Source of the DNA: a virus
Virus record (IMG/VR): IMGVR_UViG_3300007511_000059
Coordinates: 1-37,085 of that record
Length of the DNA: 37,085 nucleotides
Reading direction: 5' to 3' (one strand)
The position numbers were made by a program, and so were the translations under genes. This document shows, piece by piece, positions 5,187-15,155 of the stretch (position 1 is its first letter; each line of letters opens with the position of its first letter). The notes below the pieces were generated by a model. That model saw only the letters and a program-made list of their open reading frames with translations. It did not search any database and was not told the DNA's origin.

Positions 5187-5199
5187 CAGAAGCTCATTT

Positions 5200-5254
5200 A
5201 GCGCGTTTAAATTAGTTGGCTGGTACATTGTACCATTTTAAATCTAAACGCGCT
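5200..5254. terminator. Long inverted repeat between convergent genes, probable bidirectional terminator
   Basis: AGCGCGTTTA (5200-5209) pairs with TAAACGCGCT (5245-5254), and GGTAC/GTACC (5222-5226/5230-5234) forms an inner stem. Imperfect pairing continues outside both arms. The GC-rich core stands out in very AT-rich DNA and lies exactly where the rightward amidase transcript meets the leftward lysis-like transcript. There is no clean T-run, so RNA processing or a cruciform are alternatives. Confidence 0.6.
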
Positions 5255-5274
5255 TATATGAAGCCCCTATGAAC

Positions 5275-5427
5275 TTAAAGATATTGATTAAATTTTGTAA
5301 GTATTATTATTGTGAAGAATAATAAATACACCATTACTAGTCCTATTGCTATCCCTTCGATTGTTCTTGTTGCTAATAGAACTACTGTTATAATCAAGTA
5401 TGCTATAAATAATATAATTGTAGTCAT
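5275..5427 (-). CDS. Small two-helix membrane protein (50 aa), holin-like
   Basis: The ATG at 5427 gives a 50-residue, almost wholly hydrophobic protein with two membrane segments (about residues 3-19 and 27-43) joined by a short loop, RTIEG. It lies 20 nt downstream of the other holin-like gene on the same strand and is the last gene before the long inverted repeat. Size, topology and position next to a transglycosylase gene suggest a holin or antiholin, but this rests on topology alone. Confidence 0.55.
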   Translation of the reverse strand: MTTIILFIAYLIITVVLLATRTIEGIAIGLVMVYLLFFTIIILTKFNQYL

Positions 5428-5447: not shown

Positions 5448-5675
5448 TTATCTTATTCTTTTTTCACCTGGTTTGGCTAGTAAAAGAATTAATAATATTA
5501 ATAATGTTGATACAAATATTACTAATCCATAAGATAATTCATAATAACTTGCAGCAACAAACAATGAAATCAAAAATACTACTAATGCACAAAAGGTTGA
5601 ATAGAATCTATTAAGAAATAATAGTATCAATATAACTGCTAGTAATAAATATATTTGGTTCATGATTAAATCCAT
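5448..5675 (-). CDS. Holin-like membrane protein (75 aa)
   Basis: The protein has three hydrophobic stretches (about residues 5-20, 28-45 and 49-66) and a basic tail, KPGEKRIR, a charge pattern usual for holins. The ATG at 5675 overlaps the end of the transglycosylase-like gene by 10 nt, implying translational coupling; a second in-frame ATG lies at 5663. Holins make membrane holes that release the wall enzyme and set lysis time. The neighbours support this, but small membrane proteins are easily misassigned. Confidence 0.65.
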   Translation of the reverse strand: MDLIMNQIYLLLAVILILLFLNRFYSTFCALVVFLISLFVAASYYELSYGLVIFVSTLLILLILLLAKPGEKRIR

Positions 5676-6475
5676 TTAAAATATTTTTTTACCTTCCATA
5701 TATTATTTCTTCCATAGAAGGTTGTTCCTCCTTTATATAATTCATAACATTTATTTAGTTGCCATTTCCAATCTGTGAAGAATCTTTTATCATTAACTAT
5801 TTTTGGGTGATAATAGTTTGAGACTCCACAGAATCCGAAATCATAATATTTTTTTCCTTTACGCCAGTAAGCTATTGAATGCCTTCTATCATGTGATATT
5901 AATCCATTCTCAGCCTTGAGGAGATAAATAAAAGTTTTATCTTTACTGATCTCCCAAGCGTATCTAATCTTTTCATTCTGTTCATTTGATCCACCGATCA
6001 TAACAGGATATTTTTCTTTATCTTTTTCTATTATTTGTGGTGGTATAAATATAGCTGGATCTTTTTTCTTTATTTTGACCCTTGGACTGCTTTGAACTTT
6101 TTTTGTTGGAGGTTTGCTCGTGCTTCTCTGTTCTTGTCCAATTCTAATGTCAGTGCTTGTAATTTCTTTTGAATGTCGAATGATAGATTCTTCAATTCGG
6201 AGTCTTCTTTCTCTAGCTGTTGTCTCTCTTTGAGAGCCTTTGATTGATCTAGCAATAAGGCATTCTCTAGCACTGAGAGATCCACAAGCTTCTCCGCTAA
6301 GTTGATTGTCTTTGCTGGCTTGTTTGCTATTTGATCCGAAGGAGTTGAAGATAACAAGACCAATGCAAAACCCAAAGCCAAGCCCAAGACAGCTATTATA
6401 CCATAATTTTTTATACTTTTCTTTTTGATTTTTTTTAGAGGATTTTCCCCTGGATAAAGATTTGTTTTCATACAT
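5666..6475 (-). CDS. Transglycosylase-like (SLT/lysozyme-type) protein; its N-terminal part overlaps another frame
   Basis: The frame gives 269 residues. Residues about 135-269 look like a lytic enzyme domain: FIYLLKAENGL with a candidate catalytic Glu, then DFGFCGVSNYYHPKIVND and a C-terminal NKCYELYKGGTTFYGRNN. Such proteins cut the glycan strand of peptidoglycan. The first 125 codons overlap a second frame (6471-6070) with a much better membrane-anchor plus coiled-coil sequence. The enzyme domain is therefore reached either from the ATG at 6475, or by -1 frameshifting from the 6471 frame at A AAA AAG (6103-6097), giving a 268-residue fusion. The ATG at 6475 follows TTAAC by about 13 nt, the usual leader spacing here. 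It overlaps the holin-like gene downstream. Confidence 0.75.
   Translation of the reverse strand: MYENKSLSRGKSSKKNQKEKYKKLWYNSCLGLGFGFCIGLVIFNSFGSNSKQASKDNQLSGEACGSLSARECLIARSIKGSQRETTARERRLRIEESIIRHSKEITSTDIRIGQEQRSTSKPPTKKVQSSPRVKIKKKDPAIFIPPQIIEKDKEKYPVMIGGSNEQNEKIRYAWEISKDKTFIYLLKAENGLISHDRRHSIAYWRKGKKYYDFGFCGVSNYYHPKIVNDKRFFTDWKWQLNKCYELYKGGTTFYGRNNIWKVKKYFKWI
6070..6471 (-). CDS. Membrane-anchored coiled-coil protein overlapping the transglycosylase frame (133 aa)
   Basis: Residues about 24-42 (GIIAVLGLALGFALVLL) form a single membrane anchor after a Lys-rich start. Residues 57-125 form a heptad-rich helix (LAEKLVDLSVLENALLL and following). The start ATGAAAAC at 6471 is only 4 nt inside the other frame's ATG at 6475. 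The frame stops eight codons after the heptamer A AAA AAG, whose -1 slip would enter the transglycosylase frame. So it could be a stand-alone spanin-like or anchor protein, or the N-terminal half of the enzyme. Protein-like composition favours this frame over the overlapping one in the shared 375 nt. Confidence 0.65.
   Translation of the reverse strand: MKTNLYPGENPLKKIKKKSIKNYGIIAVLGLALGFALVLLSSTPSDQIANKPAKTINLAEKLVDLSVLENALLLDQSKALKERQQLEKEDSELKNLSFDIQKKLQALTLELDKNREARANLQQKKFKAVQGSK
6097..6103 (-). promoter_or_regulatory. Candidate -1 frameshift site (A AAA AAG)
   Basis: On the minus strand the codons CAA AAA AAG of the 133-residue frame contain the classical slippery heptamer in the correct phase, at codons 123-125. 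Slipping back one base puts the ribosome in the transglycosylase frame, with GTT as the next codon. I see no convincing stimulatory stem-loop downstream. A sequencing or assembly error in this run of seven A is an alternative. Confidence 0.45.
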
Positions 6476-6513
6476 GTAATAAAGTTAAGAAATAAATTTA
6501 TATATTAAAGTTG

Positions 6514-6723
6514 TTATAATACAGGAGTGTCATGAATTAATAACAGAATAAAGTTAGCTACTGCATGATTAGCACCAACAAGAAATAAATAAATACCTAT
6601 TAATAACGTTGTAACGATAATAAGAAAACTGATTAACCAAGTAAGAATCGGGTGTTGACATACGAAGCATTCACATTCGATCTTGTCAGCATGTCGTTGA
6701 TAAAATTTTGTTTTTGTTTTCAT
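6514..6723 (-). CDS. Small membrane protein with CxC...C motif (69 aa)
   Basis: The protein has a polar N-terminus with IECECFVCQHP (three cysteines and a histidine, possibly metal-binding) and one long or two short membrane segments between about residues 28 and 63. The start at 6723 follows the conserved block TTATTTCTTAAC plus 9 nt. It lies upstream of the overlapping lysis-like genes and is probably on the same leftward transcript. I do not recognise the family. Confidence 0.65.
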   Translation of the reverse strand: MKTKTKFYQRHADKIECECFVCQHPILTWLISFLIIVTTLLIGIYLFLVGANHAVANFILLLIHDTPVL

Positions 6724-6744
6724 GGTATTTTAGTTAAGAAATAA

Positions 6745-6867
6745 TTAGTTTAAAAAAATCAAATTATAATTTCCATAAATGATTATAAACGTATAGATCG
6801 CGGCAATTAATGCACAGATTATTAGGATTGTCATTAAGTATTGCCAGTTTGGGAATTGATTGTTCAT
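6745..6867 (-). CDS. Very small single-pass membrane protein (40 aa)
   Basis: The ATG at 6867 opens MNNQFPNWQYLMTIL and then a continuous hydrophobic helix through about residue 30, with a short polar end. It starts 7 nt after the stop of the VRR-NUC gene on the same strand and fills an otherwise empty gap, which fits the tight gene packing. Function is unknown. It forms a run of small membrane genes with its downstream neighbours. Confidence 0.55.
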   Translation of the reverse strand: MNNQFPNWQYLMTILIICALIAAIYTFIIIYGNYNLIFLN

Positions 6868-6873
6868 GGTATA

Positions 6874-7206
6874 TTAATTAAATTTATATCCATATTCTTT
6901 AAAGGCAGCTTCAAGGCTTTCAATATCCCATGCTATTACTGCTACACCACCTTCTTCTTTTACATTAGATAGGAAATCTTTTTGATATTGCGTTACTCTG
7001 TTCTTAGTCTTTGGCGTTTTCACTTCTATGGCGACAAAGCGACCTTCTCCTTTTATAAACCCTATAATATCTGATGTTCCACATGGAGCTCCACGGAATA
7101 AAGTTCCATGATCACTCATAACTTGACCTGAGTTTATTCTTATAGCGTAGACCCCTTGACGATTTAGGAACCCTAATATCATGTTAACTATTTGTGACTC
7201 TTTCAT
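6874..7206 (-). CDS. VRR-NUC domain nuclease (110 aa)
   Basis: A compact PD-(D/E)XK-type nuclease of the VRR-NUC family. Visible residues are Glu4 at the start of the first helix, GTSDIIGF (43-50) with the catalytic Asp46, and FVAIEVKTPK (57-66) with the Glu61-x-Lys63 pair. A QxxYQKDFL-type helix (73-80) follows, as in the family. The length is normal for the phage stand-alone form. Such enzymes act on branched DNA, resolving junctions made during replication or packaging. It lies between an HNH gene and small membrane genes in the leftward operon. Confidence 0.9.
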   Translation of the reverse strand: MKESQIVNMILGFLNRQGVYAIRINSGQVMSDHGTLFRGAPCGTSDIIGFIKGEGRFVAIEVKTPKTKNRVTQYQKDFLSNVKEEGGVAVIAWDIESLEAAFKEYGYKFN

Positions 7207-7215
7207 TAAGTTATA

Positions 7216-7401
7216 TTAGTGATATTTAGAATGACAATGGCGACAAAGAGCTATTAAGTTTTCAGCTTCATCGGTTCCTCCTTGTGATCTTTTTATTACG
7301 TGATGGATATCCGTTGCAGTTCTATAACACTCCTCACATTCTATCCATTCTTGTCCTGTTAAACCTTTATGTTTTAAATAATTTTTAATGTATTTTTTCA
7401 T
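7216..7401 (-). CDS. Small HNH endonuclease-type protein (61 aa)
   Basis: It has the zinc-ribbon HNH signature: CEECYRTATDIHHVIKRSQGG, then the Asn of the DEAENLIALC segment, and CRHCHSKYH. The start is placed at 7401 (ATGAAAAAATAC, directly after the upstream gene's stop); an in-frame ATG at 7416 would add five residues and overlap that gene. HNH proteins of this size next to terminase or recombination genes often nick DNA during packaging or are free-standing homing enzymes. This one sits beside the VRR-NUC gene. Confidence 0.85.
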   Translation of the reverse strand: MKKYIKNYLKHKGLTGQEWIECEECYRTATDIHHVIKRSQGGTDEAENLIALCRHCHSKYH

Positions 7402-7402
7402 A

Positions 7403-7813
7403 TTAGTTTCCCTCATGGAATATGCCTTGGTTTATCTTAGATCTCTTTAAGGACATATGGCTTCTGGCTAGTTCATATCTGGCCTTAGCTGCCTCGTACA
7501 ATGCCCTGCACTTGATTTGATTCTTCCTTGCTTCTGCTCTAGCTTTATAAATTTCCTTGACATAATCTTGATATACGATTGTTGTTCTTGCTTTACGTTC
7601 TAATTCTGATTCAGATAATTTGGTTTTATTTTGTAATGCTATATTAGTTTTTAAATCAGCTAACTTATTCTCTCTTAGTTCTTTCGTAAGATCTTTTAAT
7701 TGTTCCCAATCACATTCAGCATTAGCCCAGTTAGTTCCTGCTATTCGTATATCTTGAATGATTTGTTCTATTTTAGAATCACCAGTAGCGTTACCATTCG
7801 TAACAGTATTCAT
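7403..7813 (-). CDS. Helical hypothetical early protein (136 aa) beginning with the shared TVTNGNATGDS peptide
   Basis: After a short N-terminus the protein is predominantly charged helix (WEQLKDLTKELRENKLADLK and more), with many Lys, Arg and Glu and a Tyr-rich C-terminal helix. Comparable helical proteins occur in phage early regions near recombination or SSB genes, but I cannot name the family. Residues 3-13 (TVTNGNATGDS) are encoded by a 33-base stretch identical to one in the scaffold gene. Its start overlaps the upstream gene's end (7791-7813) and its end overlaps the alternative HNH start, so translation is probably coupled. Confidence 0.8.
   Translation of the reverse strand: MNTVTNGNATGDSKIEQIIQDIRIAGTNWANAECDWEQLKDLTKELRENKLADLKTNIALQNKTKLSESELERKARTTIVYQDYVKEIYKARAEARKNQIKCRALYEAAKARYELARSHMSLKRSKINQGIFHEGN
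7775..7807 (-). repeat. 33-bp exact repeat, copy 1 (reverse complement of 20306-20338)
   Basis: These 33 bases on the minus strand are identical to 20306-20338 on the plus strand, in the same reading frame, and encode TVTNGNATGDS in both proteins. Identity ends abruptly at both edges. The two host proteins otherwise look unrelated. Confidence 0.95.
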
Positions 7814-8048
7814 GAGTTATATTATTATTATAAGTAAGTTTAACATCTATTATTTCATCCATTTTAAGTATTCGGTTTTTCATTAGTTTTAATAATTTCT
7901 TTGTAGGTTTTTTTGAAGTTGTTATTGTAAATTGTTTTTCATAGGCAATATTGGCTGTTTCTGGTAAAAGATCGCAGCCTTTTATAAAGTTATTTATTTT
8001 ACAATTTGTTGTTAAACAATTTGCTATTATTTTATATGTTTTATTCAT
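7791..8048 (-). CDS. Hypothetical early protein (85 aa)
   Basis: A small Lys/Ile/Asn-rich protein with an N-terminal half containing three cysteines (NCLTTNC and GCDLL) and a C-terminal half of alternating strand and helix character (ILKMDEIIDVKLTY). It overlaps the downstream gene by 23 nt and starts 3 nt after the upstream gene, consistent with one operon. I do not recognise a family. Confidence 0.65.
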   Translation of the reverse strand: MNKTYKIIANCLTTNCKINNFIKGCDLLPETANIAYEKQFTITTSKKPTKKLLKLMKNRILKMDEIIDVKLTYNNNITHEYCYEW

Positions 8049-8050
8049 GA

Positions 8051-8251
8051 TTAATTATATAATGTTATAAATTGTTTATAAGCTAGATCGATTAAAGCTT
8101 TGTGTTCTTCTAAACATTTCTTAGTAAACCTAGAGTTTTCCCTTCTTTGATTATCTATTGCTGATTTGAGTATATCTAATTCTATCTTTAAATGTTTAGC
8201 GTAGAACTTCTGTTTATCCTGAATTTCTGTTTTTGTTAATAAAGTTTTCAA
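8051..8251 (-). CDS. Hypothetical helical early protein (66 aa), TTG start
   Basis: The frame starts with TTG AAA ACT at 8251. That start is supported by the conserved block TTATTTCTTAAT ending 9 nt before it, the same block that precedes several ATGAAA starts here. The protein is almost all helix, rich in Lys, Glu and Leu (KHLKIELDILKSAI), with no membrane segment or motif. Function is unknown. Confidence 0.6.
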   Translation of the reverse strand: MKTLLTKTEIQDKQKFYAKHLKIELDILKSAIDNQRRENSRFTKKCLEEHKALIDLAYKQFITLYN

Positions 8252-8261
8252 ATTATTTTTA

Positions 8262-8661
8262 TTAAGAAATAAATTGTTTAATTTTACGATTTATGTTAGT
8301 GGCAAAATCATGACAAGGCCGACACAATTCTATAAAAGAAAATGGTAAGCTATGATCAGGGTGATGGCACTGCGTTGGCGATGTGTTGCAACACTCACAT
8401 ATATTTTTCTTTTTTATTTTGTTTAATTTAATAGCATTTCCTAATTTATATTTTGCTTTATATTTTTTTGGATTATTTTTTACATATCTCTCATTTAATT
8501 TTTTTCTTTTTATTGAAGAATTATATTTTTTTAAAATTCTTTTTCTTATATTTTTTCCATTTTCAGTTTTATAATATTCTTTTTTTTGTTTGATAGCAAG
8601 CTGAACACTTATTTAAAGCATGTATTTTTTTATCTTGTTTACATATTATACATTTAGTCAT
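8262..8661 (-). pseudogene. Zinc-binding HNH-like phage protein, frame broken in a run of eight A
   Basis: From ATG at 8661 the frame gives MTKCIICKQDKKIHALNKCSACYQ, a CxxC...CxxC zinc knuckle, and stops after 31 codons. One base later in phase the frame runs on without a stop to 8262 through a Lys/Tyr-rich helix, then NICECCNTSPTQCHHPDHSLP and LCRPCHDF, a Cys/His set like HNH or zinc-ribbon proteins. Both halves together make the known layout of a small phage zinc protein: N-terminal knuckle, basic helix, C-terminal CxxC/HH/CxxC. The break lies in the A8 run at 8578-8585. It may be a real mutation, a +1 frameshift site or a homopolymer sequencing error. Confidence 0.7.
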
Positions 8662-8809
8662 GTTTTATTAAATTAGTTTTTATTCTTTCTTTGCCACATT
8701 TATAGCAGTGACAATTAGTAATAATAATTTCGTGAGTGCCTAAATCATAATCACGAGTGAATGAATCTTTCCAATCATGTAGCCCTAGTTTGCAGAATAT
8801 ATTTTTCAT
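8654..8809 (-). CDS. Small zinc-ribbon protein resembling DUF1660 prophage proteins (51 aa)
   Basis: The ATG at 8809 gives MKNIFCKLGLHDWKDS and then NCHCYKCGKERI. The pattern CKLGLHDW plus a C-terminal CxCxxCG pair is the layout of the small DUF1660 prophage family. It overlaps the start of the zinc-binding pseudogene by 8 nt and follows the SSB-like gene by 18 nt. Function in the family is unknown. Confidence 0.7.
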   Translation of the reverse strand: MKNIFCKLGLHDWKDSFTRDYDLGTHEIIITNCHCYKCGKERIKTNLIKHD

Positions 8810-8827
8810 TTTAATTTAAGTTAATAA

Positions 8828-9361
8828 TTAAAAGGGGAGATCAGTGTCAGGTGTAGGAGGTTCAGGAAGTTTTTCTTCTTCACCTATTAACCATGGTTTC
8901 ATTACTTTATATAAATCTTTAGTTAGTTGTTTAACTACTAAAGGATCTTTTGTAGTTCCTGCTAATAAAGTACAAGTATTATTGAAACACATTCCCCTAA
9001 GTATTCGTTCTTGTGTATCAATAGGTGCTGGCTTAGGTGTTGGTGTTTTATATTTTGGTGTTGATATGTTCTGTGGTTGAGTTTGTATATCTCCTTGTGG
9101 TAAGTATTGATACCCTGGCCCTTTAGCTCCCTTAAACTTCTTAATAAAGAATGTAGCTGGTGCTTGTGTGATACCAAGTTTATCAAGTTGTGCTTTCATA
9201 TTAGAACTCATAGTCCACATCTTAGTTTGTCCGTTAACATTAACTTCAGCGTCCCATTGGTCACCGAATTGTCCTTGTACGGGTGTTGGATTGTATTTAA
9301 CTAGATCTATTTGTGTTGGTGTATCGTATTGTAGATCTGATACTTTGAAATAAACTGACAT
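8828..9361 (-). CDS. Single-stranded DNA-binding protein-like (177 aa)
   Basis: The last residues, PPTPDTDLPF, match the acidic tip by which bacterial SSB proteins recruit replication and repair partners (usual form DDDIPF). Residues 1-90 are compatible with an OB fold (VQGQFGDQWDAEVNV, TMSSNMKAQLDKLG, FFIKKFKG). A Pro/Gln/Thr linker (about 92-112) follows, then a helix. The start follows TTAAT by the usual 14 nt. It would coat single-stranded DNA made by the phage primase-helicase. The fold assignment is weaker than the tail motif. Confidence 0.78.
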   Translation of the reverse strand: MSVYFKVSDLQYDTPTQIDLVKYNPTPVQGQFGDQWDAEVNVNGQTKMWTMSSNMKAQLDKLGITQAPATFFIKKFKGAKGPGYQYLPQGDIQTQPQNISTPKYKTPTPKPAPIDTQERILRGMCFNNTCTLLAGTTKDPLVVKQLTKDLYKVMKPWLIGEEEKLPEPPTPDTDLPF

Positions 9362-9384
9362 GATAATTTAATTAAGTGATAAAT

Positions 9385-9741
9385 TTATTCTCTTATTAAA
9401 ACATATTTGTATCCTTTGTCGTTTTTTTGCTTTGTTAATCCTTCAGTAACTTCACCTTTTTTATTTATTTTAATAACTTTATTAGCTTCTTGTTTTATAA
9501 CTTTGCTGTTAGTTATTATATCTTTTGTATATACAGGATATTTATCAGGTAAGATTATTTCTCCTGTATCACGCCACTCTATTAATCCATTACCGTCATT
9601 ATAGGTTAATACTGATTTTGAAGTTGGGGCTGGTGGTATACCAGTTTTTTCTATGATTTTTTCAAGTAAGTTTTTTAAATCTTTTGATTCTTTTTCAAGT
9701 TCTAAAATAATTTTTTTATGTTTTGATTTTAATATAAACAT
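9385..9741 (-). CDS. Hypothetical protein with N-terminal coiled coil (118 aa)
   Basis: Residues 1-33 are a Lys/Glu/Leu coiled coil (KKIILELEKESKDLKNLLEK). The rest reads as beta-rich segments (VLTYNDGNGLIEWRDTGEII, KVIKINKKGEVTEG) and ends KYVLIRE. No catalytic motif is visible. It lies upstream of the SSB-like gene in the leftward operon with 23 nt between. Function is unknown. Confidence 0.65.
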   Translation of the reverse strand: MFILKSKHKKIILELEKESKDLKNLLEKIIEKTGIPPAPTSKSVLTYNDGNGLIEWRDTGEIILPDKYPVYTKDIITNSKVIKQEANKVIKINKKGEVTEGLTKQKNDKGYKYVLIRE

Positions 9742-9759
9742 AATAATATAAGGGTTAAA

Positions 9760-9969
9760 TTATAAATCGATACCTCTACATAATTCATCTATATAATCTA
9801 TCTCAGCACTCCATCTAGCTTCATCTGAATAACAAGCTGTATGGTCAGGTGCTTCTTCTTCGATCTCTTTCATATCATCAGGACTATAAATAGGTTTAAC
9901 TATTTTATCCTGTGCTTGAATTATGTTTTCAAGCAATTTAAATTGTTTGTTGAATTTGTTTGGTTTCAT
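9760..9969 (-). CDS. Hypothetical acidic protein (69 aa)
   Basis: A small protein with a basic helical N-terminus and a very acidic C-terminal half (DDMKEIEEEAPDH, SAEIDYIDELCRGIDL). The start follows TTATTTCTTAAT plus 9 nt, the conserved leader block. Acidic small early phage proteins are sometimes DNA mimics or host-enzyme inhibitors, but nothing specific supports that here. Confidence 0.6.
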   Translation of the reverse strand: MKPNKFNKQFKLLENIIQAQDKIVKPIYSPDDMKEIEEEAPDHTACYSDEARWSAEIDYIDELCRGIDL

Positions 9970-10000
9970 GGTAATAAAATTAAGAAATAAGAAATATATA

Positions 10001-10192
10001 TTAAGGTTGTATTAGTTCATCTATCTTATCATCAAGATAATTTTCTAACATTCTATTATAGTGTGGATTAATTCTACCTGTACGTTTAATCCTATACATA
10101 GAATCTTGAGGGATATCTAGGTCTTTAGCCATACGATACCAGCTAATTTCTAAAGCTTCTTTTTTTTCCAGAATGGATTTGTGGATTTGCAT
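10001..10192 (-). CDS. Small helix-turn-helix DNA-binding protein, Cro/CI-like (63 aa)
   Basis: Residues 13-40 (EALEISWYRMAKDLDIPQ then DSMYRIKRTG) have the layout of a Cro/C1-type helix-turn-helix: WYRMAKDLDI as the first helix and the following helix as the recognition helix. It would be a small dimeric regulator. It lies about 0.9 kb downstream of the divergent control region, which holds at least four promoters, so it is the best candidate for the early regulator of that switch. No dimerisation or cleavage domain is present. Confidence 0.65.
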   Translation of the reverse strand: MQIHKSILEKKEALEISWYRMAKDLDIPQDSMYRIKRTGRINPHYNRMLENYLDDKIDELIQP

Positions 10193-10213
10193 ATTATTTT
10201 TATTAATAAAATA

Positions 10214-10711
10214 TTATAATTTAATTGAATTAATATTATTTAATATTAATTTATAATTATTAGCTTCTTCAACTAAAAAATATTCTCTTTCATTTATTAA
10301 TTTATTAGATATTTGCAAAAGTTTTTTTAATGGAATTTGGTCTACAGGAATAATTTTTTCTTGTATTATTTCTCCTTTCCATAAAGAATATATTCTCTTG
10401 TTTTTTAAATTGGGTGTATTTAATTCTTTATAACTAATTAGTTCTTTAATATATAATGTTTTTTGAATAAGGTTACTTGATGCTAGATTATTTTGAATAT
10501 AATCATAATTATTATAATATAAATATTGTATTTCTTGCATTAATGGTCTTCCTTCTTTATCAGAAGGAACCATCATTATTGCTTTAGTGTTACTATATAA
10601 ATCAAATATTACAGGGATTTGATTATCTTTAATAAAATTATCATTAATAAAATAATCTATTAAAGCATCTCTTTTTATATTTTTTGTTATAATATCGCAA
10701 TAAGTATCCAT
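10214..10711 (-). CDS. Hypothetical early protein (165 aa)
   Basis: A soluble protein rich in Ile, Asn, Lys and Tyr with mixed strand and helix character. Visible segments are IPVIFDLYSNTKAIMMVPSD, a helical Tyr/Asn-rich middle, and EYFLVEEANNYKLILNNI at the end. No catalytic signature or membrane segment is recognised. The start lies after an A/T-rich run with no Shine-Dalgarno sequence, and the gene is packed between the helix-turn-helix gene and a coiled-coil gene. Confidence 0.6.
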   Translation of the reverse strand: MDTYCDIITKNIKRDALIDYFINDNFIKDNQIPVIFDLYSNTKAIMMVPSDKEGRPLMQEIQYLYYNNYDYIQNNLASSNLIQKTLYIKELISYKELNTPNLKNKRIYSLWKGEIIQEKIIPVDQIPLKKLLQISNKLINEREYFLVEEANNYKLILNNINSIKL

Positions 10712-10728
10712 TTTTTTTTATTAATAAA

Positions 10729-10926
10729 TTAAAATATCTCGATTTCTTTTAAAATAATTTTTAATTGTTTTTCCAATAAAGAAACATTTTTTTTAGATAA
10801 AACAATTTCTTCTAAAAGATCTTTTACTTTTACCTTAATCTCTTTTTCTTTTTCTAGTCTTAATTCTTTTTTTGCTGAATTAAGGATTTTTTTTGAAAGA
10901 TTGATTTTTTCTTTTAATTTTTTCAT
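10729..10926 (-). CDS. Small coiled-coil protein (65 aa)
   Basis: The whole protein is one charged helix of Lys, Glu, Leu and Ile with heptad spacing (EIVLSKKNVSLLEKQLKIIL). The start follows TTAACTTAAGTGCT, the 14-nt leader. It is one of the first genes of the leftward operon. Function is unknown; such proteins often bind a host factor. Confidence 0.55.
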   Translation of the reverse strand: MKKLKEKINLSKKILNSAKKELRLEKEKEIKVKVKDLLEEIVLSKKNVSLLEKQLKIILKEIEIF

Positions 10927-11148: not shown

Positions 11149-11167
11149 TAGTAAATTAAACTTTTTG

Positions 11168-11195
11168 TTGACATGAATATTAATTAATATATAAT
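11168..11195 (+). promoter_or_regulatory. Rightward promoter for a short RNA
   Basis: TTGACA (11168-11173), a 16-nt spacer and TATAAT (11190-11195): a consensus sigma70-type promoter. The transcript would begin near 11202, immediately before a hairpin, and meet a terminator about 75 nt on. Confidence 0.7.
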
Positions 11196-11201
11196 AAGAT
11201 T

Positions 11202-11281
11202 GCACCAAGTATTATTAAGTTAATGCTTGGCGTTATAATACCATAGAAAATAGCCCGTAGAAATGCGGGCTGTTTTGTTAT
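11202..11281 (+). ncRNA. Candidate small RNA, about 80 nt, with intrinsic terminator
   Basis: Downstream of the consensus promoter the RNA would fold into CCAAGTATTA/TAATGCTTGG (11205-11214/11221-11230, with one U-G pair that favours the plus strand). It ends in AGCCCG/CGGGCT (11252-11257/11266-11271) followed by GTTTTGTT, a standard intrinsic terminator. No significant ORF is inside. It could be a regulatory or attenuated leader RNA of the control region. The fold was read by eye. Confidence 0.55.
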
Positions 11282-11284
11282 ATT

Positions 11285-11323
11285 AGCAAAAACCCCATGA
11301 ACACACGGCCTGGGGTGATTGCT
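11285..11323. promoter_or_regulatory. Strong hairpin in the divergent control region
   Basis: AGCAA (11285-11289) and ACCCCA (11292-11297) pair with TGGGGT (11311-11316) and TTGCT (11319-11323), leaving a symmetric AA/GA internal loop. The block that follows, ATTTCTTAAC plus CC before ATGAAAA at 11342, copies the gene-leader element but opens only an 8-codon ORF. On the minus strand the hairpin lies in the leader of transcripts from the 11390 promoter. Its role is not known. Confidence 0.5.
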
Positions 11324-11361
11324 ATTTCTTAACGGTGTCCCATGAAAAAAACACCATTTAT

Positions 11362-11390
11362 AATATAAAGCTTGTTAAAAGATCTGTCAA
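11362..11390 (-). promoter_or_regulatory. Second leftward promoter
   Basis: On the minus strand TTGACA (11390-11385), a 17-nt spacer and TATATT (11367-11362). Its transcript would cross the hairpins at 11323-11205 before reaching the leftward genes. Confidence 0.6.
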
Positions 11391-11408
11391 GAAAAAAGTA
11401 TTTAGGTA

Positions 11409-11437
11409 TTGACTTTTATATTTTGGTATGATATAGT
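11409..11437 (+). promoter_or_regulatory. Rightward promoter of the replication operon
   Basis: TTGACT (11409-11414), a 17-nt spacer and TATAGT (11432-11437) preceded by TGA as an extended -10. Transcription would start near 11444, giving a leader of about 130 nt before the replication initiator gene. This promoter is almost back to back with the leftward one at 11362-11390. Confidence 0.7.
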
Positions 11438-11459
11438 GGAGATACAAAAATATTTTAAT

Positions 11460-11555
11460 CGTCACACAATGAATTTTTCATTATCACCAATGAGCGGCAA
11501 TCAACAACTTTCAGAAAACTGTGACGGTTTTTATTTTTGTGCGTTGATTGTCGCT
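11460..11555 (+). promoter_or_regulatory. Interleaved terminator-like stems (attenuator or pseudoknot) ahead of the replication genes
   Basis: Stem I pairs CGTCACA (11460-11466) with TGTGACG (11520-11526), followed by GTTTTTATTTTT. Stem II pairs AGCGGCAATCAAC (11493-11505) with GTTGATTGTCGCT (11543-11555), 13 pairs including one G-U, followed by TTTTTG. The arms alternate (I, II, I, II), so the stems form a pseudoknot or compete, and each is followed by a T-run like an intrinsic terminator. A 32-codon ORF covers the same bases. Confidence 0.6.
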
Positions 11556-11567
11556 TTTTGTAATTAA
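11469..11567 (+). CDS. Candidate leader peptide (32 aa) covering the attenuator
   Basis: ATG at 11469 opens MNFSLSPMSGNQQLSENCDG and then a hydrophobic, Cys-rich end (FYFCALIVAFCN), stopping 6 nt before the initiator gene's ATG. It is preceded by TTAAT with 14 nt to the ATG, the usual start element here. A ribosome moving through it would open the stems and could relieve termination, and could also re-initiate on the next gene. It may also be only a chance ORF. Confidence 0.4.
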   Translation: MNFSLSPMSGNQQLSENCDGFYFCALIVAFCN

Positions 11568-11573
11568 TTAATT

Positions 11574-12308
11574 ATGGATAACGGATGGATAAAACTTCAC
11601 AGAGATCTTTTAGATAATGCTATAATTGAAAAACCTGAATATGCATGGCTTTGGTGTGTTTTACTTTTAAAAGCTAATCATAAAACAAAAACATTTATAT
11701 GGAATAATAATAAAACTGAATGCAAAGAAGGACAACTGTTGACAAGTAGGAAAAAACTTGCTGAAATAACATGTTTTTCAGAGAGTAAAATTGAAAGAAT
11801 TTTAAAATACCTCGAAATCGAACAGCAAATCGAACAACAAACAACCACTAAATATCGGCTTATAACAATAATTAATTGGGAAAAATACCAAGGCAACGGA
11901 CAGCAAAACGGACAACAAGTGAACAACAAACGAACAACAAACGGACACAAACAAGAATGTAAAGAATTAAAGAATAAAGAAAAAATATATAAAAAAGAAA
12001 AAGCTTTGGAAAAGAAAAGCTTTGGTGAGTTTGTATTGTTAACAGGTGATCAATATCAAAAGCTAATAACTAAGTTTGGTAAAAAATTGATAGATGAATA
12101 TATTGATAAGCTTAATTTGTATATAGGAACTAAGGGAAGAAAATATAAAAGTCATTATCATGTAATTCAAAGCTGGTTAAAAAAAGAAGAGGTAGATTTT
12201 TATAAAGAAATAAAATCTTTAGGAGCAATTAGTTTTTCAGAAAAACATGCTGATAAGTTTGCTAATGAAGAGGAATGTGATAAATTTATAAATAAATTTC
12301 TTAATTAA
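11574..12308 (+). CDS. DnaD-type replication initiator / replisome organiser (244 aa)
   Basis: The N-terminus (GWIKLHRDLLDNAIIEKPEY, then WLWCVLLLKAN and EGQLLTSRKKLAE) is the winged-helix start typical of phage replication initiators with a DnaD-like architecture, ending ITIINWEKYQ near residue 103. A Gln/Asn-rich linker follows (about 104-125), then a basic segment and a helical C-terminal half with YHVIQSWLKKEE that resembles the DnaD helicase-loading tail. It would bind the phage origin and load the helicase encoded next. It is the first gene of the rightward operon, and the 592-residue primase-helicase begins 5 nt later. An origin may lie in or near the gene; I cannot point to iterons. 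Confidence 0.82.
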   Translation: MDNGWIKLHRDLLDNAIIEKPEYAWLWCVLLLKANHKTKTFIWNNNKTECKEGQLLTSRKKLAEITCFSESKIERILKYLEIEQQIEQQTTTKYRLITIINWEKYQGNGQQNGQQVNNKRTTNGHKQECKELKNKEKIYKKEKALEKKSFGEFVLLTGDQYQKLITKFGKKLIDEYIDKLNLYIGTKGRKYKSHYHVIQSWLKKEEVDFYKEIKSLGAISFSEKHADKFANEEECDKFINKFLN

Positions 12309-12313
12309 TAATC

Positions 12314-14092
12314 ATGACTAAAAAATTTTTACAACATTTCGTTAGTCCAATCTTTCAAACATTCAAGGATAATCAAAAAGCTAATGGTTATGCAAAGGTG
12401 TTTGATGTAAAAGATGAAGCTGAATTTGAGAAACTAAATAAAGCTGGATGTGGAATATATTTTACACCGAATGGATTTAAAGGAGGAAGAAAGATAGATA
12501 ATCTTGTTAAGCTTAATGCAGTATATGCTGATTTAGATTTAGCAAAAGAAGGCAATGGTTCTGTAACAATTGAAGAGAAAAAACCTTTAGTTAAAGCTTT
12601 AAGGGATAAGTTTGATCCTAATTTTATTATTGATACAAAAAATGGTATTCAACCTATATGGCTTATTGATGAAGATAAAATAGATAAAGAAGTTCAAGAT
12701 AAATATCGTAATGTGATTAATGGTATAATTGAATGGAGTAAAACAAAAGGAGCTATGGGAGATAAGGTAAAAGATGTTACAAGGGTTTTGAGATTGCCTG
12801 GATATTATCATATGAAGAATAAACCGTATCTTTGTAAAGTTTTTACTGCTCATGATAGAAAAGTTAAGCTTGATGATTTGAAAGAAAAGTTCCCGTATGA
12901 AGAAGATAGAATAGAAATAAAGTATAATAATAATTTTAAGAGAGGGCTTGTTTTACATGAGATTGATATGATAAATTTTCAGGAATTAGTTGTTAGAGCT
13001 TTTGCTAATGTAGGGAGAACAGCTAGTTTTGATAAACAAAATAGATTAATACTTGATGGTAGATTAACTGGTACTTTTCAAGGAAAGAATGGTGATAGAA
13101 ATTATTTAGCTAGTACAAGTCATGAACCGTTTAATGGTAATAGAATAACAGTTGTTGCAGATATTCTTGGATGTACGAACAAAGAAGCTTTTTCATGGAT
13201 TAAAGAAGAGTATGGATTGAAAGAAGATAAGTTAAAAACAAAGAAGCTTGTTAAAGAAATTAAAGAAGTAAAACCTAAAGCTTTAGATAATTATTATACA
13301 TGGGGAACCGATGAGCTTACTTGGAATTTTGCACCGATAAAACGTGATACATATACTGTTTTGGTTGGAGAAACAGGTGATGGTAAAACAACTTTTAGTT
13401 ATGATATGGCGATAAAGAATGCAGCTAGAGGACATAAAGTGTTGTATATTAGTTTAGAGATGAACACTCAGGAGATATATGAGAATATAGCAAGAAGTTA
13501 TTCTAAGATAACAATCAAGGAAGAAGTAACAAAAAAAATACCTGAAAGTAAAAAAGAATTATATAATAAAAAAATGGAAGAATTAAATAATATAAAAAAT
13601 TTAAAAACAAAGGGGATTAGGGGAAATGTTGAGATTAATTGGGATTATGTGAAAACAATCCTTGATGAAGAAAAGGAATTAGATTTAGTTTTTATAGATA
13701 ATCTTGATTTGATTATTGGAAATGATGGAGAGAAAGATTATGATAGGCAGAGAAGAATAAGTAGAGAGATATTAGCTTATACAGCACAAAGGCAAGTGCC
13801 AATATTTTTATTACATCATTACAAAAAGAGAGGTAAAAGTGGTGACTTAAGAACACTTGATGATATTAGTGGATCAGCAAAAATAACACATGATGCACAT
13901 AGAATTGTTATGTTGTTTAGAAAAAAATTAGAAGAAGCAAGTATGAAAGATAAAGCAAGTTTAAAGCTTTTTTTGATGAAGGCTAGAGGATACAATCAGT
14001 GTATTAAAACAATTTATTTTGATAAAGGAAGTTTTTATGATGAGTTTGTTGAAAGAAAAAAGAATGAGGATTTTTGGTGGAATATAAAATAA
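12314..14092 (+). CDS. Bifunctional primase-helicase: AEP-type primase plus DnaB-family (SF4) helicase (592 aa)
   Basis: The N-terminal 200 residues carry VYADLDLAKEG with Asp73-x-Asp75, the metal-binding pair of archaeo-eukaryotic-type primases, and DVTRVLRLPGYYHMKN (154-169), usual in this superfamily. Residues 325-590 form a RecA-like helicase domain: Walker A GETGDGKT (352-359), LYISLEM (377-383), Walker B DLVFIDNLDL (457-466), and LLHHYKKRG (499-507) with the following DDISGSAKI. It would unwind DNA at the fork and make primers. The genome has no DNA polymerase gene, so host polymerase is needed. It starts 5 nt after the initiator gene. Confidence 0.92.
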   Translation: MTKKFLQHFVSPIFQTFKDNQKANGYAKVFDVKDEAEFEKLNKAGCGIYFTPNGFKGGRKIDNLVKLNAVYADLDLAKEGNGSVTIEEKKPLVKALRDKFDPNFIIDTKNGIQPIWLIDEDKIDKEVQDKYRNVINGIIEWSKTKGAMGDKVKDVTRVLRLPGYYHMKNKPYLCKVFTAHDRKVKLDDLKEKFPYEEDRIEIKYNNNFKRGLVLHEIDMINFQELVVRAFANVGRTASFDKQNRLILDGRLTGTFQGKNGDRNYLASTSHEPFNGNRITVVADILGCTNKEAFSWIKEEYGLKEDKLKTKKLVKEIKEVKPKALDNYYTWGTDELTWNFAPIKRDTYTVLVGETGDGKTTFSYDMAIKNAARGHKVLYISLEMNTQEIYENIARSYSKITIKEEVTKKIPESKKELYNKKMEELNNIKNLKTKGIRGNVEINWDYVKTILDEEKELDLVFIDNLDLIIGNDGEKDYDRQRRISREILAYTAQRQVPIFLLHHYKKRGKSGDLRTLDDISGSAKITHDAHRIVMLFRKKLEEASMKDKASLKLFLMKARGYNQCIKTIYFDKGSFYDEFVERKKNEDFWWNIK

Positions 14093-14111: not shown

Positions 14112-14306
14112 ATGAAAGTAAAACTACAGTTTTCGCAGAAGAAACATCTTAGGGGTTATAATATAACAACTCTTGAGAGGATAAAAGCGATGGAGGATAA
14201 TGGTAAATATATTAAATTTGCTCCACATAACAAGAATATGATTGAGCATTTAGAGAAAGTAGAAATTGATTTACCAAATTATGTGGATATAGATTCTAAA
14301 TTTTAA
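14112..14306 (+). CDS. Hypothetical protein (64 aa)
   Basis: A small basic-to-neutral protein, MKVKLQFSQKKHLRGYNITT onward, with strand-helix character and no recognised motif. It follows the helicase by 19 nt in the same operon and has the TTAAT leader. The segment TTLERIKAMEDNGKYI may be a helix. Function is unknown. Confidence 0.65.
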   Translation: MKVKLQFSQKKHLRGYNITTLERIKAMEDNGKYIKFAPHNKNMIEHLEKVEIDLPNYVDIDSKF

Positions 14307-14323
14307 TTCTTAATTATACAACT

Positions 14324-14497
14324 ATGAAATTCAAATTACTTTGTAAACAATGCGGGTATTCAAGGGTTAGCTCAACTGATAGTATGGTTGATTGTTCTAA
14401 ATGTGAAGGATTATTAGATGTAGTAAACATCTGGGTAGAGACAGAAGATGAAGCGCCTAGGGTAGAAGAGTTACAAGGATTGTATGGAATAGAATAA
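14324..14497 (+). CDS. Zinc-ribbon protein (57 aa)
   Basis: ATG at 14324 opens MKFKLLCKQCGYSRV, then VDCSKCEGLLD: two CxxC knuckles separated by about 14 residues, a zinc ribbon. The C-terminus is acidic. The start has the TTAAT-14-nt leader. It is the last gene before the late promoter region. Small zinc ribbons often contact nucleic acid or RNA polymerase, but the role here is unknown. Confidence 0.72.
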   Translation: MKFKLLCKQCGYSRVSSTDSMVDCSKCEGLLDVVNIWVETEDEAPRVEELQGLYGIE

Positions 14498-14505
14498 AAA
14501 AACAC

Positions 14506-14534
14506 TTGCAATTTTTACTAACCTGTGCTAGAAT
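14506..14534 (+). promoter_or_regulatory. Probable late-operon promoter
   Basis: TTGCAA (14506-14511), a 17-nt spacer and TAGAAT (14529-14534) with an extended -10 TGC. It lies 9 nt after the stop of the zinc-ribbon gene and about 30 nt before a highly structured RNA. Transcription would start near 14541, giving a leader of about 300 nt to the first late gene. Confidence 0.75.
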
Positions 14535-14563
14535 GTTAAGTGAATTAGGTTTTTGTTTTGGTC

Positions 14564-14704
14564 TTTGAATACTATATCGGGCGTTAAGCCATAAACAACT
14601 GGGCTTTAAACAAACCCTGCGGCAAGCATTTGGTTCAGACTGACTGTTAAGCTAGTAGGTGAGTTGTTGGGTCACGGGGCCGAACGCCCCGTTTAGTATT
14701 CAAA
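14564..14704 (+). ncRNA. Candidate structured RNA in the late leader (about 140 nt, with pseudoknot)
   Basis: TTTGAATACTA (14564-14574) pairs perfectly with TAGTATTCAAA (14694-14704), and GGGCGTT (14579-14585) with AACGCCC (14683-14689) extends the closing helix inward. Inside, AAGCC/GGCTT (14586-14590/14602-14606) forms a hairpin whose loop, AACAACT (14594-14600), is complementary to AGTTGTT (14662-14668), a pseudoknot. GGGGC/GCCCC (14676-14690) is a competing hairpin. The stretch is much richer in GC than its surroundings and holds no ORF. I match it to no known family. The rest of the gap (14705-14840) shows nothing clear. Confidence 0.6.
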
Positions 14705-14840
14705 ATTAAATAGCCTGAGATGTTCTAAGGTACATTTAAGAAGTTTATATATAGAAGTGGCACTTGACATCATTTCTAAAACAAACACCTCGAGGATCGC
14801 AATATTTTAACTCATAAAAATATTTAATAACAAATAAACT

Positions 14841-15155
14841 ATGTTTGAATGTGAAGAATGTGGAAAGATATGTAAGTCTAAGCTAGGATTGGCTGGACAT
14901 ATGCGAGTACACACGAAGGAGGGAAACCCTGGAGGAGCAAAGCTTGGAGTTAAGAAAGGGTATCAAGGTAAGCGACCTATCCCTGCACAACCTGTTAAGG
15001 TTGGTTTTGAGGTAGGAGATAAGGTACAACACAAGATCTTAGGTGATAAGTTTGTAGTTGTTGGGATCAATGATCTTGGGTTGATAGGACGCAAGGTAAA
15101 TAATCGTGATCCTTTAAAACTTTATCGGCCTACTGAGCTGATAAAAATAAACTAA
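14841..15155 (+). CDS. C2H2 zinc-finger protein, first late gene (104 aa)
   Basis: Residues 2-24 (FECEECGKICKSKLGLAGHM then RVH) form a classical single C2H2 zinc finger, C-x2-C-x12-H-x3-H. A Gly/Lys linker follows, then a small beta domain (VGDKVQHKILGDKFVVVGIN) that resembles an SH3/KOW-like barrel, then an end rich in polar residues. A nucleic-acid-binding role is likely, perhaps in late transcription or packaging. It is the first gene after the structured leader RNA, so it may act on that RNA or on antitermination; that is speculation. Confidence 0.75.
   Translation: MFECEECGKICKSKLGLAGHMRVHTKEGNPGGAKLGVKKGYQGKRPIPAQPVKVGFEVGDKVQHKILGDKFVVVGINDLGLIGRKVNNRDPLKLYRPTELIKIN

Follow-up and report, generated by a model that had tools for sequence, protein, structure and literature searches.

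The leader of the late genes in this viral DNA contains a terminator-like hairpin (T) and two stacked helices (P1 and P2) which compete for the same bases. By computation both folds exist, both are significant and they are mutually exclusive, and the leader may serve as a conditional transcription terminator/antiterminator, a reading that we favour tentatively and hold at somewhat less than an even chance. The leader RNA is a real, non-random fold that is unfamiliar to Rfam.

The window analysed here is the whole of a 37,085-base virus record with 32.6% GC. Minus-strand genes lie at 5666-10926, and the plus strand then carries, at 11574-14092, genes for a DnaD-like helicase loader and for the helicase DnaB, followed 3' of the DnaB gene by two small plus-strand genes and a gap at 14498-14840. 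The final gene of this upstream replication operon (rep, dnaB and the small genes) stops at 14497; it encodes a 57-aa zinc-ribbon-like protein (14324..14497, plus strand; PF23455, E=6.3e-4, under the cut-off), which lies directly upstream of the putative late promoter and is a candidate regulator by position only. The first gene 3' of the leader (14841..15155, plus strand) encodes a 104-aa protein, earlier suggested as a possible partner of the element, with an N-terminal C2H2-like zinc finger (PF00096; E=1.2e-4, score 22.7 bits where 25.2 is the cut-off), and it is followed by genes for a glycosyltransferase, terminase, portal and capsid, so the element sits between the replication genes and the packaging genes. 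The untranslated leader covers 14541..14840 on the plus strand, from the putative transcription start, placed by the -10 box, to the first late gene. A preliminary description of this DNA had reported a GC-rich stretch without ORF in AT-rich surroundings, and both points hold: ORFs that lie wholly within the gap reach at most 31 aa on either strand, and 14615-14704 has 52% GC, a value reached or exceeded by 0.2% of 90-nt windows.

The putative late promoter, TTGCAA-17-TGcTAGAAT with an extended -10, is located at 14506..14534 on the plus strand, with a likely start near 14541. It had been called strong; a plausible site is indeed present, but it agrees with the consensus at only 9/12 positions and the word "strong" could not be upheld. 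Promoter-like sites are not enriched in the region (33 seen vs 46.5 expected), nor are extended -10 sites with at most one mismatch (3 seen vs 3.75 expected). The late promoter at 14506 is plausible and statistically weak, and by count alone it is not above chance.

An 11-bp closing helix extended by a 7-bp inner helix had been proposed from the letters, and every pair of both is Watson-Crick. P1 (11/11) is formed by 14564..14574 and 14694..14704, and P2 (7/7) by 14579..14585 and 14683..14689, all on the plus strand, with an internal loop of 4-nt sides between them. Helices of 11 bp are at chance level in the window (5 positions; shuffle mean 5.7). The 11+7 composite, in which P1 is stacked on P2, occurs only here in the window, in none of 200 whole-window shuffles and in 1 of 5000 shuffled leaders, and is thus beyond chance. 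P1 spans 141 nt, and P1/P2 enclose a folded core of roughly 90 nt, in which a central irregular stem-loop (14616..14659, plus strand) is present in the minimum free energy (MFE) structure and in the forced alternatives.

The MFE of 14562-14705 is -51.4 kcal/mol (z -4.25), while the lowest among 1028 grid windows (72-base grid, both strands) is -46.5, in a comparison where the ends of the element were chosen and those of the grid windows were not. The z-score of -4.25 is unexceptional here, with at least 14 of the 1028 windows more extreme, and the idea that the element is a whole-window outlier in folding z-score was rejected for this reason. Moreover, z for this stretch is -4.33 on the minus strand; because both strands fold equally well, folding energy cannot tell which strand acts, and the acting strand was taken from context.

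Hairpin T, absent from the preliminary description, is found at 14674..14692 on the plus strand (ACGGGGC-CGAAC-GCCCCGT; 7 bp, 6 of them G-C, loop CGAAC, -12.8 kcal/mol), is followed by TTAGTATT and competes with P2. All sites composed of a hairpin and a T-tract were scored on both strands with the d'Aubenton Carafa formula (terminator score d). In 37 kb and on both strands, only two loci have d>=15, namely 11250-11273 and 14675-14691 (T); both are on the plus strand and both are in operon leaders, the former in that of the replication operon. The score of T is 17.5, which was equalled or exceeded in 9 of 200 shuffled windows (one strand), and the leader holding T makes up 1% of the window. T with TTAGTATT is a good candidate for an intrinsic terminator. 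Its T-tract is broken (TTTAGTATTC), and T may terminate poorly because of this interruption.

Bases 14683-14689 are common to T and P2. The two folds exclude each other because the 3' strand of P2 lies in the 3' arm of T and the 3' strand of P1 in the tail that follows T. Features of terminator/antiterminator leaders are therefore present in this leader: a terminator-like hairpin with an (interrupted) T-tract in the leader of an operon, and an alternative helix which excludes this hairpin. Growing transcripts were folded stepwise at equilibrium from the inferred start at 14541, with Vienna energies that include neither pseudoknots nor kinetics nor host temperature. P2 is dominant (0.91-0.99) in transcripts ending at 14688-14690, T is dominant (0.87-0.91) in those ending at 14692-14696, and P1+P2 are dominant from 14699 onward; in the full-length RNA, P(T) is 0.003. 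When T was kept fixed and the upstream 133 nt were shuffled, the median P(T) was 0.999, a P(T) below 0.05 was found in 21 of 1000 shuffles and the real value of 0.003 was reached in 5 of 1000. Since so few upstream shuffles suppress P(T), the upstream strand is placed to dismantle T beyond chance. T and P2 are not two independent signals, as both use one GC-rich strand.

From these folds the following mechanism could be proposed. The promoter at 14506-14534 would set the start of RNA polymerase near 14541. Where T prevails during synthesis of the tail, the transcript would end after about 155-160 nt and the late genes would be off; where the shared strand is instead kept by P2, with 14579..14585 as the antiterminator strand, and by P1, polymerase would read on into the structural genes (about 22 kb) and, should the genome be circular or permuted, might continue into the lysis region. 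Candidates for setting the balance are a phage antitermination protein, a factor that binds the core, or the speed of transcription. In this scheme we infer the use of the 14506 promoter, real termination at T and the action of any regulator. T may seldom form unaided, because P2 at equilibrium already holds the strand at transcript ends 14688-14690, and the folded P1/P2 form is favoured in the calculation without any ligand; together with the interrupted T-tract, this means that the default could be readthrough.

A pseudoknot had also been proposed, between the loop of a hairpin at 14586..14606 (AAGCC/GGCTT) and a downstream strand. The pairing itself stands, since 14594..14600 in the loop matches 14662..14668 at 7/7 positions (all on the plus strand), but it is barely above chance: shuffles match it in 1.3% of cases for the core and in 2.8% for the 144 nt. 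The hairpin that the pseudoknot requires occupies about 5% of the nested-only ensemble, in which competing nested pairs dominate. A pseudoknot in the leader is weakly supported.

The element had been matched to no known family by eye, and the covariance models of Rfam 15 (tmRNA, introns, riboswitches and others) agree: none matches at the gathering threshold, and matches at E up to 10 are at chance level only. Neither a tmRNA nor an intron was recognised in this search, and ARAGORN finds no tRNA or tmRNA in the leader. A resemblance to E. coli tmRNA at 14621-14652 (CAAGC..AGACTGACT..AAGC) was within chance and was rejected by Rfam; the pattern matches E. coli-type tmRNA in prophages and also many unrelated places, which is why the resemblance looks like chance. 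The earlier picture of a structured, Rfam-negative, untranslated leader before the late genes is thus supported by the fold, by the statistics of P1+P2 and by the Rfam search.

Searches of phage, plasmid and viral sequences by proteins, DNA patterns, blastn and a single-sequence covariance model yielded no homologue of the leader. With the zinc-finger protein and DnaB as protein queries, no homologous locus was obtained. Alignments of capsid and terminase gave at least 80 loci each from viral contigs and 70 from genomes, with the closest terminase among the matches listed at up to about 49% and the closest capsid at up to 36%, and the RNA covariance model found no element at these loci among the matches listed. 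Searches by blastn of phages and plasmids, and by three viral sequence patterns (one terminase motif, two for the RNA), returned no relative; five matches to one viral pattern were discarded, as the similarity does not continue beyond the pattern. MW202803.1, which is alike in capsid and portal, was also rejected: its late-side divergent gap has no significant fold (z -0.8), and it gave no covariance-model match above chance. Within the window, no motif common to the late and replication leaders was found. This failure to find homologues is weak evidence of absence.

Several other segments were recorded in the course of this survey. Eight other viral contigs (L172:575-610, L181, L187, L190, L217, L227, L240 and L243) share a conserved and apparently non-coding intergenic segment, GGCC..CAAGCATGTGTGACATGCAGACTGACTGCC..AAGC, which looks like another structured RNA. 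In the window, the leader of the replication operon (11160-11573) is strongly folded (z -6.9), has promoters at 11168 (plus strand, 12/12) and 11390 (minus strand, 11/12) and includes the best terminator hairpin of the window (11250-11273); two short convergent RNAs (~11203-11276 on the plus strand and ~11355-11288 on the minus strand) could control rep. At 11459-11560, just 5' of rep, two stems with long loops overlap: CGTCACA..TGTGACG with GTTTTTATTTTT after it, and GCGGCAATCAAC..GTTGATTGTCGC with TTTTT after it. They are interlocked in the manner of a pseudoknot or of alternative terminators. The helicase-loader gene carries, at 11895-11952, 4-5 copies of a direct repeat of about 11 bp (AACGGACAAC/AACGAACAAC), probably origin iterons. 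The minus strand has a very stable hairpin at 5187-5330 (AGCGCGTTTAAATTAG..CTAAACGCGCT, z -7.3), in the interval that separates the amidase gene from the convergent early genes; it is probably a bidirectional terminator. A gap of 576 bp at 8252-8827 (23% GC) has no assignable ORF on the strand that encodes the early genes. The stop codons of 49 chosen ORFs are TAA (45) and TAG (4), with no TGA; in the host, TGA may be missing or recoded. Most ORF starts have no Shine-Dalgarno sequence, and a TTAAyTT-like motif stands about 14 nt upstream of many of them.

Four roles had been suggested for the element, of which cis control of transcription fits best; we prefer a conditional terminator to a demonstrated antitermination element because T and P2 are mutually exclusive. 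T could also do no more than terminate the replication operon upstream of it, with the 14506 promoter spurious or unrelated and P1/P2 a structure of the 3' end: the last gene of that operon stops at 14497, T is the first good terminator beyond it, and the promoter has a 9/12 match only. However, a plain terminator needs no upstream strand that dismantles it, and no better late promoter is listed on the plus strand between 14705 and 14841, and we regard this reading as unlikely. Cis-acting antitermination RNAs (put) are described for early operons. The leader could be an RNA of this kind, binding polymerase during elongation and letting it ignore the terminators of the late operon, and it resembles the put RNA of HK022 in being a structured phage leader just 3' of a promoter and before a long operon. 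The put RNAs of HK022 are about 70 nt, fold into two stem-loops, are similar in sequence among put sites, act in early operons and work without a phage protein (PMC9378689), whereas the RNA here is longer (141 nt across P1), has another fold, precedes late genes, lacks the defining features of put and has no Rfam match. Moreover, the late genes contain few terminator-like sites and none with a high score among the intrinsic sites scored; with T as the sole high scorer of the late operon, processive antitermination lacks an intrinsic terminator as its target. On these intrinsic sites, the earlier suggestion was rejected in this processive sense, across internal terminators, and a put-like RNA seems to us quite unlikely.

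An independent small RNA of about 140-165 nt, running from the 14506 promoter to T or to a cut at P1 and having a trans-acting or packaging role, would account for the long closing helix, the compact fold and the terminator-like end of its own, and other short promoter-terminator units apparently lie around 11168-11390; P1, on the other side, requires bases past the terminator tail, and neither a homologue nor an Rfam match was found, so that we consider it doubtful that the RNA acts in this way. The stretch might instead be a DNA element, such as a MITE-like small inverted-repeat insertion or a recombination or packaging site, with the RNA fold incidental. Both strands fold equally well, the GC content is unlike that of the genome and there are 27-nt inverted repeats (81%), but there is no second copy in the window, no matching flanking duplication by eye and no match in the phage or plasmid collections, and we judge such an element improbable. 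That the leader is only a 5' stability structure guarding the late mRNA, with no switch, agrees with a very stable fold near the 5' end; this reading leaves the overlap of T and P2 unexplained, about 20 nt lie 5' of P1, and it is highly improbable.

In phage 21, the late promoter is followed by the terminator tR', within a test fragment from -148 to +214 (PMC6606751). The order of late promoter, short leader, terminator and late genes in our window appears to match this lambdoid pR'-tR' layout, with phage 21 as the nearest case, and the small zinc-ribbon gene directly upstream of the promoter adds a likeness in position only. The lambdoid late switches known to us work via proteins (Q) at the late promoter. 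Unlike in the Q system, the leader here itself contains the antiterminator fold; the proteins encoded at 14112, 14324 and 14841 gave no Pfam or PHROGs match to the Q family, and a diverged Q is possible. As in riboswitches and attenuators, the closing helix of the core shares a strand with the terminator hairpin, but there is no known ligand, leader peptide, conserved aptamer or Rfam match, and the folded form is favoured without ligand in the calculation. In the Bacillus LoaP/dfn leader, an RNA element and then a promoter-proximal terminator precede a long operon (PMC12691694); the decisive terminator lies in the leader in dfn, as proposed here, while dfn depends on a NusG paralogue together with a UNCG hairpin, and neither of these was seen here. 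It would go further to suppose that late transcription is decided by a sensing core with a pseudoknot, which P1/P2 close, acting alone or together with a small zinc protein of the phage, in place of the Q-type protein-only switch. A new class of leader in that sense has, in our estimate, a low probability.

If T merely terminates the preceding operon, the arrangement is an ordinary one. If the conditional-terminator reading is true, the phage would have a late switch that is simple and unusual, with the late terminator and an antiterminator against it in one leader, and because the strands are mutually exclusive, this switch would be testable by point mutations in a plasmid reporter.
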